A stretch of DNA of 64,000 nucleotides from positions 1-64,000 of the forward strand of contig JAIPIH010000003.1 of assembly GCA_021734835.1 (NCBI GenBank), read 5' to 3'. Shown here piece after piece: positions 2,447 through 11,211 of the stretch; position 1 is the first letter of the stretch; each line of letters starts with the position of its first letter. This DNA is from Candidatus Cloacimonadota bacterium (GTDB lineage: Bacteria > Cloacimonadota > Cloacimonadia > Cloacimonadales > TCS61). The notes beneath the pieces are model-generated. The model was not told the origin of the DNA and searched no databases. It worked only from the letters and a program-made list of their open reading frames with translations. The translations under genes were made by a program, and so were the position numbers.

Positions 2447-3865
2447 ATGAAAAAGTTGCTGGTGATTTTACCTTTATTACTGATCTATAGCCTTTTGCTA
2501 TCTCAACCAATGATCAAATTTGATAATTTAGAGCATGATTTTGGGAGAATTAAAGAAGAAGGCGGACCTTATAATACTGAATTCATTTTTACTAATACCG
2601 GCGATGAACCGTTTAAACTGATAAAAGTAACTGCCGGCTGAGGATGTACGGTACCCAGTTGGTCAACTGGTGAGATTATACCTGGGCAAAAAGGAAGTAT
2701 TTCAGTTGAGTTTGATGCTAATAATAGACCTGGAAAGATCAATAAAACCATTAAGGTGATTACAAGCATTGATGATAATGTCATGGTCTTAGCTGTAAAA
2801 GGACATATTATTAGTACACCAGGTAAACTTAGAAAAAAGATAGGATCAATTACAGCAGATAACGATATCGTTAATTTCGGCGATCATAAAAAAGGTGAAA
2901 AACTTTCCAAAAAAATCATTATTCACAATATTACCGAAGATACCTTGAATATCTCAGCTGTAGAACTTCCGGAAGGCATTTATGTTGAGATCAGTCCCGA
3001 TGTACTGAAACCATCTGAATACGGGGAACTGAACATGATCTTTGATTCACATAAAAGTGAATATGGGAAAATAAATTCATTCATTAAAATCAATATTGAA
3101 GCTCCGGAAATTACTACAACCGGGCAGATAAAATTTTTTGCAAATATTATAGAGGATTTTTCTTTATTAACTGCTCAGGAATTGGTTAATGCTCCTGTTA
3201 TATCAATTGATAACAATACCATCTTCCTGAAAGATCTGCCTTATCAAAAAGTATCAAAAAAAATTGTTTATATTACGAATAAAGGGACAAGAGATCTTAA
3301 AATTCGCAACATACAGACCACCGACGATAGATTTTCCGTAGAGCCATCTGAATTCGCTATTCAGTCTGGTAAAAGCAGTTCATTTACTATTAATATTAAA
3401 CCGGAAAAAGGTGATAAGAAACTAAAGTCAACGGTTACAGTGATCTCAAACGATCCCGAACGCAGCAGAGAAAGTTTTACCATCGTAGCTGACGTAATAG
3501 CTTCAGAAGATAATTATGATCTCGATTTTGTAATCGATGTAAAAGTGTTTAAAGCCAGTAAAATTATTAAAAGTTTTGCTGACAATGATGATTTCGTTAT
3601 CCTGGACGTAAGAACTAAGCCTGAATATACAGCAGGCTGCCTAAGTGAAGCTGTAAACATTGATTATAAAGCTCCTGATTTTAGAAAAATAATCAGCCTC
3701 TTGGATAAGAATAAAATATATCTGGTTTATTGCAAATCCGGTTTCAGAAGTTTAAGATCGATCGAAATTATGGCAGAATTAGGATTTGAGAATATATATC
3801 ATATGCAGGAGGGATTTGACGGCTGGAAAGCTCAGGGATTGGAATGGATATATCCTGATAAATAA
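2447..3865 (+). CDS. Exported DUF1573-rhodanese selenoprotein A (in-frame UGA = Sec65)
   Basis: Reading through the TGA at 2639-2641 gives one continuous 472-residue protein. It has a signal peptide (residues 1-19, ending LLSQ), a DUF1573 domain (about 20-120), further ASH/HYDIN-like beta domains (about 125-355) and a C-terminal rhodanese domain (about 365-470) with active-site loop CKSGFR (Cys429). The UGA replaces the first Cys of the DUF1573 motif, so the product reads TAG-Sec-GCTVPSW, a Sec-x-Cys redox pair. A SECIS-like hairpin follows at 2650-2682. The start is ATG 2447, with AAGAGG 5 nt upstream; a GTG at 2441 is less likely. The likely location is the periplasm. I infer thiol/selenol redox or sulfur-transfer chemistry; the substrate is unknown. 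The alternative, a nonsense pseudogene, is hard to square with the paralogue having the same UGA. Confidence 0.88.
2650..2682 (+). promoter_or_regulatory. Bacterial SECIS element of selenoprotein A
   Basis: The stem CCAGTT (2655-2660) pairs with AACTGG (2665-2670) around the tetraloop GGTC (2661-2664). An outer GGTA (2650-2653) pairs with TACC (2679-2682). The loop starts 20 nt after the UGA. E. coli fdhF has the same GGUC loop starting 19 nt after its UGA, which is where SelB binds. This is a hand fold without energy calculation. Confidence 0.82.
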
Positions 3866-3989
3866 ATATGCAGACCGGACGTTGTACATTGCAACCAAAT
3901 TTATATTATACTATATCTGAGTATGGGGAGACCGTAATTTTGTGATCAGGATATTTAGCGCGAAGTTTTAAATTATTTGGAGGAGCTAA

Positions 3990-5399
3990 ATGAAAAAAAT
4001 ATTAATAATAACAGTGATTTTACTAATTACGGTGATCTTGATCTCAAAACCAATAATAGAGTTTGAGACCATGCACTATGATTTTGGTAAGATCAAAGAG
4101 GCCGGTGGTCCGCATAAATTTAATTTCAAATTCACAAATACTGGTGATGAGCTATTCCGCGTGCTCGATGTCAAAGCCGGCTGAGGATGTACTGCTCCCA
4201 GCTGGTCAGCTGACGAAATTAAACCGAGACAATCAGATGTTATTTCTGTTCTGTTTGATTCCAATAACAGATTAGGCGGATTTAAAAAATATATCGAAGT
4301 TTATACAACTATCCGAGATAAATATTATTTATTGTCACTCGAAGGTTATGTTATCCCAACACCAGGCAAAATGAGATCTAAGATCGGTCCCTTGGATGCC
4401 TCAACTAATTTCCTGCCACTTAAAGATATATTTTTAAATACGATCTTATCGGAAACTATAAGTATTTTTAACAGCGGAGATGATACAATTTATATTCAAC
4501 CGCTAAATATACCTGAAAAAATTATCATAAATGTAGAACCGGAAAAACTGACTGTCGGACAAGCAGGGGAGATCAAGCTTATCCTGAATACAACTGATTC
4601 TGAATTTGGAAAGTACATTCTTCCATGTAGTTTTGAGATCATTCAAAACAAAACAAAAACTATTGGTAATATATCGGTTACATATAATATAGTTGAAGAT
4701 TTTGAGTCCTTATCAGAAAAAGACGCAGCTAATCCACCTGTGATTAAAACTGCTGACTTGATCGACCTGGGAAAAGTTGAACCAAATGAAATTACTACCA
4801 GAGTGATTACAGTTGAAAATCTTGGAAAGAGGGATCTTCTAATTCATAGGATAACATCGTCAAATAGTATGTACTCTATCACTCCGAAAAAATTAGCTAT
4901 TGCACCGGGGAAAACAGGTGCTTTCAAGATCAGTCTCTTTCCCACTATAGAAAGGAATAACATCATATCAAAACTGACCATCATTTCTAATGATCCACAA
5001 TCAAGCGTGATTAATTGCACAATTACAGGAAAAGTTGTTCAATCTGATCTACAACAGAGTAGTGTTATTGATGTTTCCATCTTAGAGGCTGAGTCAATTA
5101 TTGCAAACCAACAAGGAAATGTTAATTTTGTTATCCTGGACGTAAGAACTAAGCCGGAATATGAAGCCGGCTGCATTAATGAAGCTGTTAACATTGATTT
5201 TAAAGCTCCTGATTTTAGAAAAATAATCAGCCTCTTGGATAAGAATAAAATATATCTGGTTTATTGCAGATCCGGTTTCAGAAGTTTAAGATCGATCGAA
5301 ATTATGGCAGAATTAGGATATGAGAATATATATCATATGCAAGATGGATTTGACGGCTGGAAAGCTCAAGGTTTGGAATTCATCTTTCCCAAAAAATAA
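3990..5399 (+). CDS. Exported DUF1573-rhodanese selenoprotein B (in-frame UGA = Sec65)
   Basis: This is a tandem paralogue of the preceding gene, 469 residues when the TGA at 4182-4184 is read through. It has the same layout: signal peptide (MKKILIITVILLITVILISK), DUF1573 domain with KAG-Sec-GCTAPSW at residue 65, ASH-like beta domains, and C-terminal rhodanese with CRSGFR (Cys426). The start at 3990 has a GGAGG ribosome-binding site. The Sec codon is at exactly the same residue number as in copy A. The DUF1573 and middle domains have diverged strongly, but the rhodanese-encoding end is nearly identical in DNA, pointing to gene conversion or a recent partial duplication. 124 nt separate the copies, so this copy may have its own promoter. 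Likely periplasmic; the redox or sulfur-transfer role is inferred. Confidence 0.88.
4199..4212 (+). promoter_or_regulatory. Bacterial SECIS element of selenoprotein B
   Basis: The stem CAGCT (4199-4203) pairs with AGCTG (4208-4212) around a GGTC loop (4204-4207), with the loop starting 20 nt after the UGA exactly as in copy A. Compared with copy A, the fourth stem pair is C-G in place of T-A. Both arms changed, so pairing is kept, which is direct evidence that the RNA fold is selected. Confidence 0.82.
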
Positions 5400-5982: not shown

Positions 5983-8900
5983 ATGAAAAAGGGAATAATT
6001 TTTTTATTGGCTTTGTTGTTCACAGTTAGCTTTGCTTTCGCGGCAAAAAGCGCGCCAATTCAGTACGACCCGGCCAACTATCCTGCACCCACAAGACAGG
6101 GCGGGGATACTGTGGGAAGTGCGACTGTGATCGCGTCGTTGCCTTACAACGATATTGGCACAACAGCAGGATATGTGGATGATTACGATGAAGAATGTCC
6201 ATATACAGGCAGTACAGCACCGGATGTTGTGTATGCTTTTACACCGGCTTCAGATGTAGACGTTGTAATCTCACTTTGCGGTGATACTGATTATGACACG
6301 AAACTTTATGTCTACGAAAATACCGTAACTCCTGGCACTCCGTTTGCTTGTAACGACGATGAATGTACTAGTGCCTTAGGCCAAGATTATGTTTCAGAAT
6401 TATCTGGCTTAAGCTTTACTAGTGGCAACACTTACTACATTGTTGTTGATGGTTATGGTGGACTCAGCGGAAACTATGAAATTGATGTAGCACAATACGT
6501 AGCAGGTGACACATGCGATGATGCTATAGTTGTTGGTGAAGTTACAGATCTACCATTTGATACTACTATTGCTACTGCCAGTGGATTTGGTACATACATA
6601 ACAAGCCAAGACTTGTTTTATGTTTATACCGCTCCTTCAGACGGTGCTCTTTATGTAGGATTATGTGATAGTGGCTTTGACACTAAACTAGCACTTTACG
6701 GAGATTGTGATCCTGTTTCTGAGATCGCTACAAATGACGATTCATGCGGCTTACAATCAGAACTGATCGATATTCCTGTAACAGCTGGCGATGATTACTA
6801 CATTCAAGTTGGCGGATATAGTAGTTCTTCAGGTACAGGTCTGTTGGATGTTGCATTTACCAGCTCTTTTGTTCCTGAGCCTCCTACAAATCTAATGGTT
6901 ACAGAAGATGGCTATGCAACTTGGGAAGAACCAGCTTCTGGAACACCAGATGCGCTATACGAACAACTTGAATTTGTGAGTACTGAGGGTGGTATAAGTT
7001 CACAGGACTTTGAAGCTGCATACGATCAGTATGATGCGGAAGGTGCTGATGAATTTATGATCCCAGCTGGTGAAGAATGGACAATTGAAGAAGTTGTAAT
7101 TTTAGGATCTTACAGTGCAGCCGGTCCTTGTGATCTTGCTAACATCCGTTTCTTTGATGATAATGCCGGAATGCCAGGAACACTCTTGTTTGAATATCTT
7201 GATGTTCCAGCAAACCCGGATGTAGATGGAAACCTTGATTGTACTATTGATCCAACTGTTCTTACGGAAGGTACTTATTGGTTAAGCGTACAAGGCCGTC
7301 AAGACTTTGCAACTGGTGGACAATGGTATTGGACACGACAAGCAGCTCCAACAATCGGTTATGAATTCCATTGGCAGAACCCTCTGGATGGATTTAGCTC
7401 CGGATTCACAACTTGGGTTGCAGGTTCCGTTAACTGGCCAGGCCAAAATGATTATAATCTCAGTTTTGGTCTCTACGGATCAGCCGCTGTAACAGAAGCT
7501 GGAAAAACTACTGTTCACACTTATGAGTATGATGCTGTAAGGAATGTTAGGAATACTCCGGTAGAATCTATTGATCCTCTTATCCTTGCAAAAGGACCAA
7601 AACTAACAGGAAATAGAAACTTTAATACAAATACAACTCGTGATTTTATAGCTTACAATGTATATCTTGATGGTGCTCTTGCTGGATCAACAACAGATCT
7701 CTTCTACCAATACACTGGCTTAGTAGATGGTACTGAATACTTAGCAGAAGTGACAGCTGATTATGACGAAGGTGAATCTGTTCCAATCGATTATACTTTT
7801 ACTTATGTAGAGCAAACAACTAACTATATCGAAATCGGTGATGGTCAAACTTATGGAGCTTATCCGGTTTATTATGGTGATTTTGCCAACTATTGGGAAA
7901 ATTGCCATACCCAAACTCTTTATTTGGCTTCTGAACTTGGCGAAGCTACAACATTAACAGAGCTTTCCTGGGAACTTGAACGAATAGCAGCAGCTCCGGA
8001 TAACTGGTTATCAAATGTTGTTATTAGTATTCTTCCTACAGCTGATGCTGAATTAACAGAAGGTGATTTCTATGATATGACAGGTGCAACAGTTGTATGG
8101 TCAAATGCAAATTATGTTCCTGCTGTAGATGTAGGTTGGAATGATCCAATTGATATTACAGATTATGATTATAATGGAACTGACAACTTGATAGTTGATA
8201 TATTATGGGGAGATAATGGTTATTATGAATCTCCATATTATCGACATATGAGAACTGATGGCGGTGTTACACGTGTACTGCTAGGTTATGCAGATGGTGA
8301 AACTCCACCGTTATATGATAATTCATCAACAGAATTTGCTAATATCAGATTCTACTTTGAAAGTGGAACCACTGAAGCTCCTGATGTATTCTTCTCTGAA
8401 TATATTGAAGGAAGCAGTAACAATAAAGCAATTGAGATCTACAACAATACTGGTGATGTGATCGAGCTTGATAACTATAGAATTAATCAGTCCGTTAATG
8501 GTGGCGGTTGGGAATACCAACATATCTTCCCAGCTGGTGCGACTTTGGCAGATGGTGATGTCTGGGTTATTTTAAATGATGCAACTGATCCTGGTTTATT
8601 CGATATAGGTGATGCTGATGAAGTCCTGGGCTATCCTAGTGTTGTTCATCACAATGGTGATGATGCACGTGGTCTGGAATATACAGACGACGGCGGAGCA
8701 ACATGGACACTGATCGATGTAATCGGTAATCCTGATGAAGATCCGGGCAGTGGCTGGGATGTTGCCGGCGTTACTGCTGCTACTCAAAACCATACTCTGG
8801 TGAGAAAAGCTGAAATAACAACCGGTAATACAGATTGGATTGCTTCAGCCGGAACAAGCGTAGCGGATTCAGAGTGGGAAGTTTATGAGGAAGACACATT

Positions 8901-11211
8901 TATGTATCTCGGACAACATCCTGGAACCGGCGGAACTACATTCGATCCACCAACTAATGTTATGGTCGATGATGAAACAGGAACTATTACCTGGTTACCT
9001 CCAACAGTCACAGTAATTGAGGATAATTTCGATAGTTATACTCCAGGTGACTTCATCGCTGAAGTTGGTGAAGATTGGACAACTTGGACAGGCAGCCCGG
9101 GTAGCGCTGAAGATGCTCATGTTTCAGATGCTCAATCATACAGCCCGTCTAACTCAATCTTAGTGGAAGAAGGTAATGACCTTATTCTGATCATGGACGA
9201 CTATACAGAAGGTAAAGTAGCAGTTGATCTGATGATGTACGTTCCAACAGGTTATTGCGGATACTATAATCTTCAGCAAACAAGTACTCCGGGACAATAC
9301 TGGGGTTTCCAGATCTATTTCCAAACTGATGGAACTGTGATCGGAGATGCTGGCGAAGCTGGAGCGCTTAACTTTACATTCAATCATGATGAATGGATGT
9401 CTTGTAAGGTTATAGTTGATCTTGATAATGACCTTGCAACATACTATCATGATGGTGTAGAAATGATCTCCTGGCAATGGTCTCTTGGAACATTTGGTAA
9501 TCCGCAAGTAAACCAATTAGGTGGAGTTAACATCTTTGGTGGTGCTAATACAGGAACTACTGATGTTCCAATGTTCTATGTAGATGATGTTATGGTTGGT
9601 GAAGTTCCTGCTGACCTAACAGGCTTCAAACTATATCTTGATTCCTCAGAAGTAACAACAGTAGGAGCAGATGTAGGCGAATATACTTATGAAGGTCTTG
9701 ATGAAGATCAAACATATTTAGCTGGTATTTCAGCTCTTTATGATCCTGATGAATCAGAAGTTGTAGAAGTAGAATTCACTTATAATCCTGATACTTCATT
9801 TGATCCTCCCACAAATCCGGCAGCTGATGTATCGGATTATAACGATGTTGTACTTACTTGGGAAGCACCAAGTGGAGCTGCAGAATGGCTGCGTTGGGAT
9901 TCAGGTGAGAACTTTGATGCTATAGGTCTTACTGCCGGCGGTACTTTCTTAGTTGCTGCTAAGTGGGATCCGGCAGATCTTACCGAATATGATGGAGCAC
10001 AAATCACTAAGCTTGAGTTCTTCCCGAACGAAGTGGTTACAGAATACATTGCATATGTATGGGAAGGAGCTAATGCTGGTACGATGCTGACATCAGAAGT
10101 TGTAACTACCTATAATGCAGCTGAATTCACAGAAGTAGTGTTCAGCTCTCCTGCTACAATAGATGCTTCTCAGGAGTTATGGATTGGTTATGAAGTAACA
10201 CATGCTGCAGGTGCTTATCCAGCTGGTTGTGATGCTGGACCGGCAATTGCAGGATATGGTGATTTGATCAGCCAGGACGGTGGTGTAACTTGGGATCCAT
10301 TATCAGGATTCGGATTAGACTATAATTGGAATCTGGCAGCTTATATAGAATCTGCAGACGGTGAGCCAGTGGTTCTGAGTAATCCTCAAAAGCCGCTTGC
10401 AAAACCAGTGAGCAGAGTATTAAATCAAAGTAATCCATTCTCATGTATCCAAACTACTAATTTACGTGAAACACGTTCTTTGAGTGGATATAAGATCTAT
10501 CAGGATGGTGTGGAAATTGATGAAGTAATGGATCCAGCAACACTTACATATACTGTTGGATCATTAGATGCTGGTACTTACTCATTCACTATAACAGCTG
10601 TATATACAGCTCCAGAAGGAGAATCAGTTGAAACAGATCCTGTTTCAGCTGAGATCGTACTGAATCCTCCTTCTAATGTTGATGCACAATCACAACCACC
10701 AAATATAATAATTACCTGGGGACCTCCGGCAAGAGGCGTTGACAGTTATAACATTTACCGTAACGGTGAACTTCATGCAGAAAATGTTACGGGTGTTATG
10801 TTCATAGATGTTAACGTTCCAACCGGAACATATACTTATAATCTAACAACTGTTTATGATGGTGGTTGGGAATCAGCATTCAGTCCGAATGAAATTGTTG
10901 AGCATGTGACTGGAGATGATATCCTGAAGCCTACAGTTACAGAACTTACAGGTAATTATCCAAATCCATTCAATCCTGAAACAACAATCAGCTTCTCACT
11001 TAAAGAAGCTGGTCATGTAACAATAAATATTTACAATCTTAGAGGTCAGTTAGTCAAAACTCTTGTAAATACTGAACTCGATAATGCATACTATGAGTAT
11101 GTATGGGATGGTAAAGATAATAGTGGTAAGTCCACTTCTAGTGGTGTTTATTTCTACAAGATGAAAGCTAAAAATTACAACAGCACTAAGAAAATGATCC
11201 TTATGAAGTAA
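5983..11211 (+). CDS. Large secreted multidomain surface protein with C-terminal sorting domain
   Basis: This 1742-residue protein has a clear signal peptide (MKKGIIFLLALLFTVSFAFA). Two PPC-like beta domains follow (about 40-170 and 178-300; motifs DTKLYVYE and YYIVVDGYGG). Next come fibronectin-III-like segments, a lamin-tail-like domain (about 800-935; FFSEYIEGSSNNKAIEIYN), a jelly-roll/concanavalin-like domain (about 1009-1205), more Fn3-like modules, and a FlgD-like sorting domain (about 1655-1742; NYPNPFNPETTISFSL, ending KKMILMK). No protease or glycosidase active site is evident, so adhesion or a surface-layer role is likelier than catalysis. The start has an AGGAGAA ribosome-binding site. 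The base composition is richer in G and C than its surroundings. A terminator follows. Confidence 0.85.
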   Translation: MKKGIIFLLALLFTVSFAFAAKSAPIQYDPANYPAPTRQGGDTVGSATVIASLPYNDIGTTAGYVDDYDEECPYTGSTAPDVVYAFTPASDVDVVISLCGDTDYDTKLYVYENTVTPGTPFACNDDECTSALGQDYVSELSGLSFTSGNTYYIVVDGYGGLSGNYEIDVAQYVAGDTCDDAIVVGEVTDLPFDTTIATASGFGTYITSQDLFYVYTAPSDGALYVGLCDSGFDTKLALYGDCDPVSEIATNDDSCGLQSELIDIPVTAGDDYYIQVGGYSSSSGTGLLDVAFTSSFVPEPPTNLMVTEDGYATWEEPASGTPDALYEQLEFVSTEGGISSQDFEAAYDQYDAEGADEFMIPAGEEWTIEEVVILGSYSAAGPCDLANIRFFDDNAGMPGTLLFEYLDVPANPDVDGNLDCTIDPTVLTEGTYWLSVQGRQDFATGGQWYWTRQAAPTIGYEFHWQNPLDGFSSGFTTWVAGSVNWPGQNDYNLSFGLYGSAAVTEAGKTTVHTYEYDAVRNVRNTPVESIDPLILAKGPKLTGNRNFNTNTTRDFIAYNVYLDGALAGSTTDLFYQYTGLVDGTEYLAEVTADYDEGESVPIDYTFTYVEQTTNYIEIGDGQTYGAYPVYYGDFANYWENCHTQTLYLASELGEATTLTELSWELERIAAAPDNWLSNVVISILPTADAELTEGDFYDMTGATVVWSNANYVPAVDVGWNDPIDITDYDYNGTDNLIVDILWGDNGYYESPYYRHMRTDGGVTRVLLGYADGETPPLYDNSSTEFANIRFYFESGTTEAPDVFFSEYIEGSSNNKAIEIYNNTGDVIELDNYRINQSVNGGGWEYQHIFPAGATLADGDVWVILNDATDPGLFDIGDADEVLGYPSVVHHNGDDARGLEYTDDGGATWTLIDVIGNPDEDPGSGWDVAGVTAATQNHTLVRKAEITTGNTDWIASAGTSVADSEWEVYEEDTFMYLGQHPGTGGTTFDPPTNVMVDDETGTITWLPPTVTVIEDNFDSYTPGDFIAEVGEDWTTWTGSPGSAEDAHVSDAQSYSPSNSILVEEGNDLILIMDDYTEGKVAVDLMMYVPTGYCGYYNLQQTSTPGQYWGFQIYFQTDGTVIGDAGEAGALNFTFNHDEWMSCKVIVDLDNDLATYYHDGVEMISWQWSLGTFGNPQVNQLGGVNIFGGANTGTTDVPMFYVDDVMVGEVPADLTGFKLYLDSSEVTTVGADVGEYTYEGLDEDQTYLAGISALYDPDESEVVEVEFTYNPDTSFDPPTNPAADVSDYNDVVLTWEAPSGAAEWLRWDSGENFDAIGLTAGGTFLVAAKWDPADLTEYDGAQITKLEFFPNEVVTEYIAYVWEGANAGTMLTSEVVTTYNAAEFTEVVFSSPATIDASQELWIGYEVTHAAGAYPAGCDAGPAIAGYGDLISQDGGVTWDPLSGFGLDYNWNLAAYIESADGEPVVLSNPQKPLAKPVSRVLNQSNPFSCIQTTNLRETRSLSGYKIYQDGVEIDEVMDPATLTYTVGSLDAGTYSFTITAVYTAPEGESVETDPVSAEIVLNPPSNVDAQSQPPNIIITWGPPARGVDSYNIYRNGELHAENVTGVMFIDVNVPTGTYTYNLTTVYDGGWESAFSPNEIVEHVTGDDILKPTVTELTGNYPNPFNPETTISFSLKEAGHVTINIYNLRGQLVKTLVNTELDNAYYEYVWDGKDNSGKSTSSGVYFYKMKAKNYNSTKKMILMK

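Follow-up and report, generated by a model that had tools for sequence, protein, structure and literature searches.

We found that a 64,000-nucleotide stretch of a Cloacimonadota draft genome (the window) carries two tandem genes that almost certainly encode selenoproteins, in which an in-frame UGA stands for selenocysteine (Sec) at a conserved DUF1573 motif and the DUF1573 domain is joined to a C-terminal rhodanese domain. This near-certainty concerns the identity of the genes as selenoproteins alone. The window comprises the initial 64 kb of contig C41 in a draft genome of 2.67 Mb that is 86.9% complete. Among named relatives, the closest are MAGs of Candidatus Cloacimonadota. The features of the two genes are listed in Table 1.

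Table 1. Features of the tandem selenoprotein genes, with positions counted from the first nucleotide of the window.
Feature	Position	Strand	Description
Gene 1	2447..3865	+	Exported (predicted) Sec-DUF1573 / two further HYDIN-ASH Ig-like domains / rhodanese; 472 aa, UGA = Sec65
In-frame UGA, gene 1	2639..2641	+	Sec65 codon, UGC motif, partner Cys67; conserved across 33 homologous genes
SECIS hairpin, gene 1	2656..2669	+	Stem 2656-2660 with 2665-2669 (extendable to 2655/2670); apical loop GGUC 2661-2664
Rhodanese domain, gene 1	3569..3862	+	Residues about 375-472; Cys429 in CKSGFR
Gene 2	3990..5399	+	Tandem paralogue, architecture as gene 1; 469 aa, UGA = Sec65
In-frame UGA, gene 2	4182..4184	+	Sec65 codon
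SECIS hairpin, gene 2	4199..4212	+	Stem 4199-4203 with 4208-4212; loop GGUC 4204-4207
Rhodanese domain, gene 2	5112..5396	+	87-98% DNA identity to gene 1 rhodanese; remainder of gene about 50-68%

The two genes lie head to tail on the same strand and their proteins are 48% identical. Each gene has one in-frame UGA, at the same codon in both, and this UGA occupies the first-Cys position of the DUF1573 CGCT motif, so that the motif reads A-G-UGA-G-C-T. The DUF1573 model (PF07610) matched several stretches of each protein above the Pfam cut-offs, with scores of 144 bits for gene 1 and 128.9 bits for gene 2. The rhodanese model (PF00581) scored 59.4 and 62.3 bits, respectively, against a Pfam cut-off of 22.2, and the catalytic Cys is kept in both active loops (CKSGFR in gene 1 and CRSGFR in gene 2). 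By domain score and loop Cys together, both domains belong to PF00581, with predicted sulfurtransferase activity. The N-terminus of both proteins shows, by eye, a hydrophobic segment after MKK, and a helix was modelled at residues 2-16; from this the products are predicted to be exported. The AlphaFold model of the gene 1 protein (mean pLDDT 88.6; pTM 0.58 for the domain arrangement) showed three beta-rich domains, an unordered tether at residues 353-360 and a C-terminal alpha/beta domain at the position of the rhodanese. A fold search of the PDB gave as best solved single-protein match, to part of the model, an uncharacterised Porphyromonas gingivalis protein (2qsv), and the other matches were mainly generic tandem Ig-like folds (HYDIN, CEP192). 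The initial annotation had described two reading frames with a single UGA at codon 65 and a C-terminal rhodanese with a CxSGFR loop; its coordinates, codon number and motif were exact, its domains scored above the Pfam cut-offs, and its proposal of export agrees with the N-terminal segment.

To assess whether the UGA is read as Sec, we examined the decoding machinery and the distribution of the codon. The genome encodes SelB (324.8 bits against a cut-off of 242), a tRNA-Sec with anticodon UCA that adjoins selB on contig C57 (62.3 bits against a cut-off of 47), SelA (556.8 bits) and SelD, whose gene bears an in-frame UGA of its own. UGA terminates 5 of the 34 long open frames in the window and so doubles there as a stop codon, which rules out genome-wide reassignment and means that the codon is recoded. 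A search of 125 Cloacimonadota genomes found the motif UGA in 33 homologous genes from 29 genomes. In 66 homologues outside this phylum, nearly all of them from Bacteroidota with one from Chlorobiota, the site has Cys (CGCT). Because so many related genes share the UGA and the homologues elsewhere have Cys, chance and sequencing error are excluded.

The UGA is at the first position of the motif (UGC) in 32 of the 33 genes and at the second (CGU) in the remaining one, and a Sec/Cys pair is retained in every gene of the set. The exception, in G056 (L084:4826-5887, minus strand), reads Cys-Gly-Sec with the hairpin unmoved, and the spacing between UGA and loop is 13 nt instead of 19. A tree was built of 92 sequences, 33 of them Sec rows; on it the Sec/Cys label needs two changes compared with a shuffled mean of 27.3. 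The Sec genes lie on one side in a near-complete separation, apart from two Bacteroidota Cys rows, on very long branches, that are placed among them. Of the 29 genomes with Sec-DUF1573 genes, 23 gave a tRNA-Sec above the cut-off and four of the remaining six gave selA, so that 27 of the 29 have one or the other; the two genomes in which neither was found are incomplete drafts (61% and 81%, the latter being G056). In the largest sampled family of the phylum (f2, G001-G050), neither a Sec-DUF1573 gene nor a strong tRNA-Sec match was found. The search for selA found none in four near-complete genomes of this family, which suggests that its members do not use selenocysteine.

A hairpin of the form C-C-A-G-U-U / GGUC / A-A-C-U-G-G, or a variant of it, follows the UGA in all 33 Sec genes, and its GGUC loop is invariant. 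All 165 cells of the five inner pairs (columns 18-22 with 27-31) are paired. Variation is confined to three of these pairs and affects nine cells, in each of which both bases have changed: four cells have G-C for A-U, two have C-G for U-A and three have A-U for U-A. One such compensatory change, C-G for U-A, distinguishes the hairpin of gene 2 from that of gene 1. Slid versions of the pairing gave zero compensatory changes. Wobble bases are nearly fixed inside the stem and vary freely outside it, and the codon for Ser71 is AGT or AGC wherever Ser is present, whereas Ser codons elsewhere in these genes are mixed. In G112, G116 and G124 (L083, L082 and L085), the inner stem pair is inverted from U-A to A-U together with replacement of the conserved Trp72 by Arg; here the SECIS RNA structure seems to override the protein sequence. 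None of the 66 Cys homologues, used as a negative control, forms all five pairs, and most form one to three. The case for the SECIS is carried by this covariation, because the single-sequence folding energy of the hairpins is not unusual (z near 0) and an Rfam search of the window gave no meaningful match and no model for the hairpin.

By sequence, the two genes have the marks of bacterial selenoproteins: a UGA aligned with the Cys of homologues, a downstream hairpin with a G-bearing loop, and selA, selB, tRNA-Sec and selD in the same genome. The Sec-Gly-Cys at the DUF1573 motif had been proposed in the initial annotation, which would have been overturned by a genome with neither selB nor tRNA-Sec; all four sel genes were present in the draft, and the Cys homologues that it suggested looking for were found in other phyla. 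The SECIS that it proposed to look for was found as the covarying hairpin, and Rfam yielded nothing.

The rhodanese is associated with Sec-DUF1573 in several forms within the phylum. Fusions of the same kind as in the window were found in 17 genes (alignment A3), of which that of G117 has one Ig-like domain fewer. G056 has a divergent fusion, in which the DUF1573 domain is followed by two rhodanese stretches. The Sec gene of G112, G116 and G124 is followed closely by a rhodanese gene in its own right, about 145 codons long, and these rhodanese genes apparently encode lipoproteins, judging from their lipobox-like N-termini or signal peptides (e.g. ...IISACS, ...FFTSCS). This variety of forms speaks for a functional link. 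Another residue stands in place of the rhodanese Cys in 2 of the 17 aligned fusions (the second G095 copy and G064), and likewise in a partial gene of G075 and in both stretches of G056. For about ten Sec-DUF1573 genes no rhodanese could be seen; some of these genes lie at contig ends. These genes and the lost Cys residues together indicate that the function of the Sec does not depend on a rhodanese everywhere. Among 297 Bacteroidota genomes screened for the fusion there were 20 strong matches in 18 genomes, none with a UGA and none spanning both parts, and the Bacteroidota neighbourhoods showed no rhodanese link except for one weak rhodanese match near L140. The rhodanese of gene 1 has an extra Cys at residue 398, which is shared by gene 2, G102, G098, G097, G067 and the first G095 copy, and which is found mainly in the genus of the window; the other fusions have the His of 'GHI' at this position. 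Cys398 is a possible second redox Cys of the domain.

The DNA identity between the two window genes is uneven. The high identity given in Table 1 covers their 3' 270 nt (3590-3862 against 5120-5396) and falls to the lower range elsewhere. The tandems of G097 and G064 each consist of one fused and one unfused gene, and in the tree window gene 2 groups with the unfused G097 copy. Most simply, the rhodanese end of gene 2 was probably acquired or overwritten from gene 1 by recent gene conversion.

Directly downstream of the Sec genes, at 5983-11211, the window encodes a large secreted protein with a type IX secretion (T9SS) sorting tail, and a large secreted protein is found directly 3' of the Sec gene in most loci. 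At 1053-2399, on the minus strand, there is a gene whose product resembles VanZ in one part and DUF498 at its C-terminus, in each case below the Pfam cut-off, and a TPR gene is adjacent to it; such a VanZ/DUF498-like gene and a TPR gene also lie upstream of the Sec gene in some relatives. The neighbourhoods in the window and its relatives contained no substrate-defining genes, nothing diagnostic of function, and no recognised metal-handling or peroxide genes. Elsewhere, the genome encodes DsbD and a CcdA-like protein, which could keep the Sec/Cys pair reduced.

We tentatively favour the reading that genes 1 and 2 are an OS_HP2/DUF1573 (UGC)-type selenoprotein pair in which a persulfide is relayed from Cys429 to Sec65/Cys67. 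The codon, the SECIS, the machinery, the domain order and the rhodanese association are read from the sequence; export, redox state, direction of transfer, substrate and recycling are what we infer. In rhodanese-reductase fusions sulfane sulfur is delivered to the fused redox centre, and this is the model for the proposed relay. SelB and tRNA-Sec would decode UGA65 through the GGUC hairpin starting 14 nt downstream. The mature protein would be exported with three Ig-like (HYDIN/ASH/DUF1573) domains, and a flexible tether at 353-360 would carry the single-domain rhodanese. Sec65-Gly-Cys67 of the first Ig-like domain would form a reversible selenenylsulfide, and a Sec/Cys pair one residue apart whose sides are swapped in G056 would fit such a redox centre. 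Cys429 of the rhodanese would take up sulfane sulfur as a persulfide, which Sec65/Cys67 would reduce or from which it would pass the sulfur on, so that sulfide or a sulfurated product is released and Se-S is left. The Se-S would then be reset by an exported thiol-reducing path (DsbD/CcdA). A selenium-dependent thiol or persulfide relay had been suggested in the initial annotation; it stands as a candidate for the window proteins and cannot hold across the family, with the rhodanese Cys lost in some fusions and the Sec/Cys pair kept in all. A further step is to regard these proteins as extracytoplasmic Se-dependent persulfide/polysulfide reductases or sulfur carriers, in which a Sec-x-Cys Ig-like domain is combined with a rhodanese on a tether. 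They would then be a new type of enzyme that lacks the thioredoxin fold and that arose repeatedly in Cloacimonadota through fusion or pairing of the two parts. We consider this rather unlikely.

A serious competitor, to which we give somewhat less credence than to the relay, is that Sec-Gly-Cys is a thiol-disulfide oxidoreductase or isomerase for exported Cys-bearing proteins, such as the large secreted neighbours, and that the rhodanese is merely an auxiliary or binding module. Such a role would accommodate the many Sec-DUF1573 proteins without a rhodanese and the fused rhodaneses without their Cys, as well as the trading of sides by Sec and Cys in G056, which is expected for a redox pair, and the presence of DsbD. 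It would also give meaning to the secreted proteins downstream in most loci, including that with the T9SS tail in the window; however, such proteins may be common in these genomes and their adjacency may be incidental. It leaves unexplained why the rhodanese is paired with Sec-DUF1573 in at least three ways (fusion, divergent fusion and adjacent lipoprotein-like gene).

It is improbable that Sec65/Cys67 carries no sulfur and instead binds a metal or metalloid or reduces peroxide. A soft-ligand Sec-x-Cys pair could bind metal, but the invariant columns of alignment A3 contain no further Cys or His and no metal-handling or peroxide genes were recognised nearby. In favour of this role, prokaryotic selenoproteins without an assigned function are mostly presumed to be redox or antioxidant proteins (PMC9312934). 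That there is no selenoprotein at all, and the UGAs are nonsense mutations, errors or stops giving short proteins, would suit the missing Rfam model and is extremely unlikely given the recurrence of the motif UGA in 33 genes from 29 genomes, the covarying hairpin, the full Sec machinery and the Cys homologues.

DUF1573 is named as a family of unknown function, and Sec at its CGC motif marks this motif as chemically active and probably as a redox site. That Sec-DUF1573 is repeatedly paired with rhodanese gives a specific lead to DUF1573 chemistry, pointing to sulfane sulfur, and is relevant also to the common Cys forms of Bacteroidota. Joined to a rhodanese, the selenoprotein suggests that selenium serves in a step of extracytoplasmic sulfur or thiol chemistry. 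The Sec-DUF1573-rhodanese family is probably under-annotated, because its genes would be split by gene callers for which UGA is always a stop.

Sec at DUF1573 is already known. OS_HP2 (pfam07610, UxC) appears in the ocean metagenome selenoproteome (PMC2398784), and a 'DUF1573 domain-containing protein, UGC' is catalogued in reviews (PMC9312934, PMC13188914). Sec-DUF1573 may have further representatives in Desulfobacterota. Like OS_HP2 (NF041425, PF07610), the window proteins have DUF1573 with Sec-Gly-Cys at the CGC motif, and both combine the PF07610 domain and UGC motif by which OS_HP2 is recognised in the literature. All 17 fusions matched NF041425 at E <= 1e-5. However, the window proteins scored 90.9 and 62.2 bits against the curated NCBIfam cut-off of 100 bits, and for this reason we term them OS_HP2-like and not annotated NF041425 members. 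They differ from OS_HP2 by two added Ig-like domains and a C-terminal rhodanese, which the available text of the three papers does not mention. In the openly accessible literature on DUF1573 and on selenoproteins in Cloacimonadota, as far as its text was available, we found no DUF1573-rhodanese selenoprotein fusion. The initial annotation had taken the whole architecture as undescribed; this apparently holds for the fusion and does not hold for Sec at DUF1573 itself.

The Bacteroidota DUF1573 proteins with Cys, which have about 350-400 aa and a partial structure in 2qsv, share the three-domain part with CGCT at the same site, but have Cys instead of Sec and neither the SECIS hairpin nor the rhodanese. 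Rhodanese-type selenoproteins (PF00581 forms, NF041203 and TsoB, NF045694; PMC13188914) likewise hold a rhodanese within a selenoprotein, and TsoB is also a fusion. Their Sec motifs, as given there, are those of rhodanese or DsbD-like families, whereas the window rhodanese keeps its Cys and the Sec is in DUF1573; the window proteins scored far below the cut-offs of NF041203 and NF045694. Single-domain rhodaneses (GlpE, PspE, YgaP) and the reductase fusions (CoA-persulfide reductase 8a56, 3nta) resemble the window proteins in their single rhodanese domain with a CxSGFR-type loop. In contrast to the reductase fusions, the partner of the window rhodanese is no flavoprotein but an Ig-like selenoprotein domain that is predicted to be exported.
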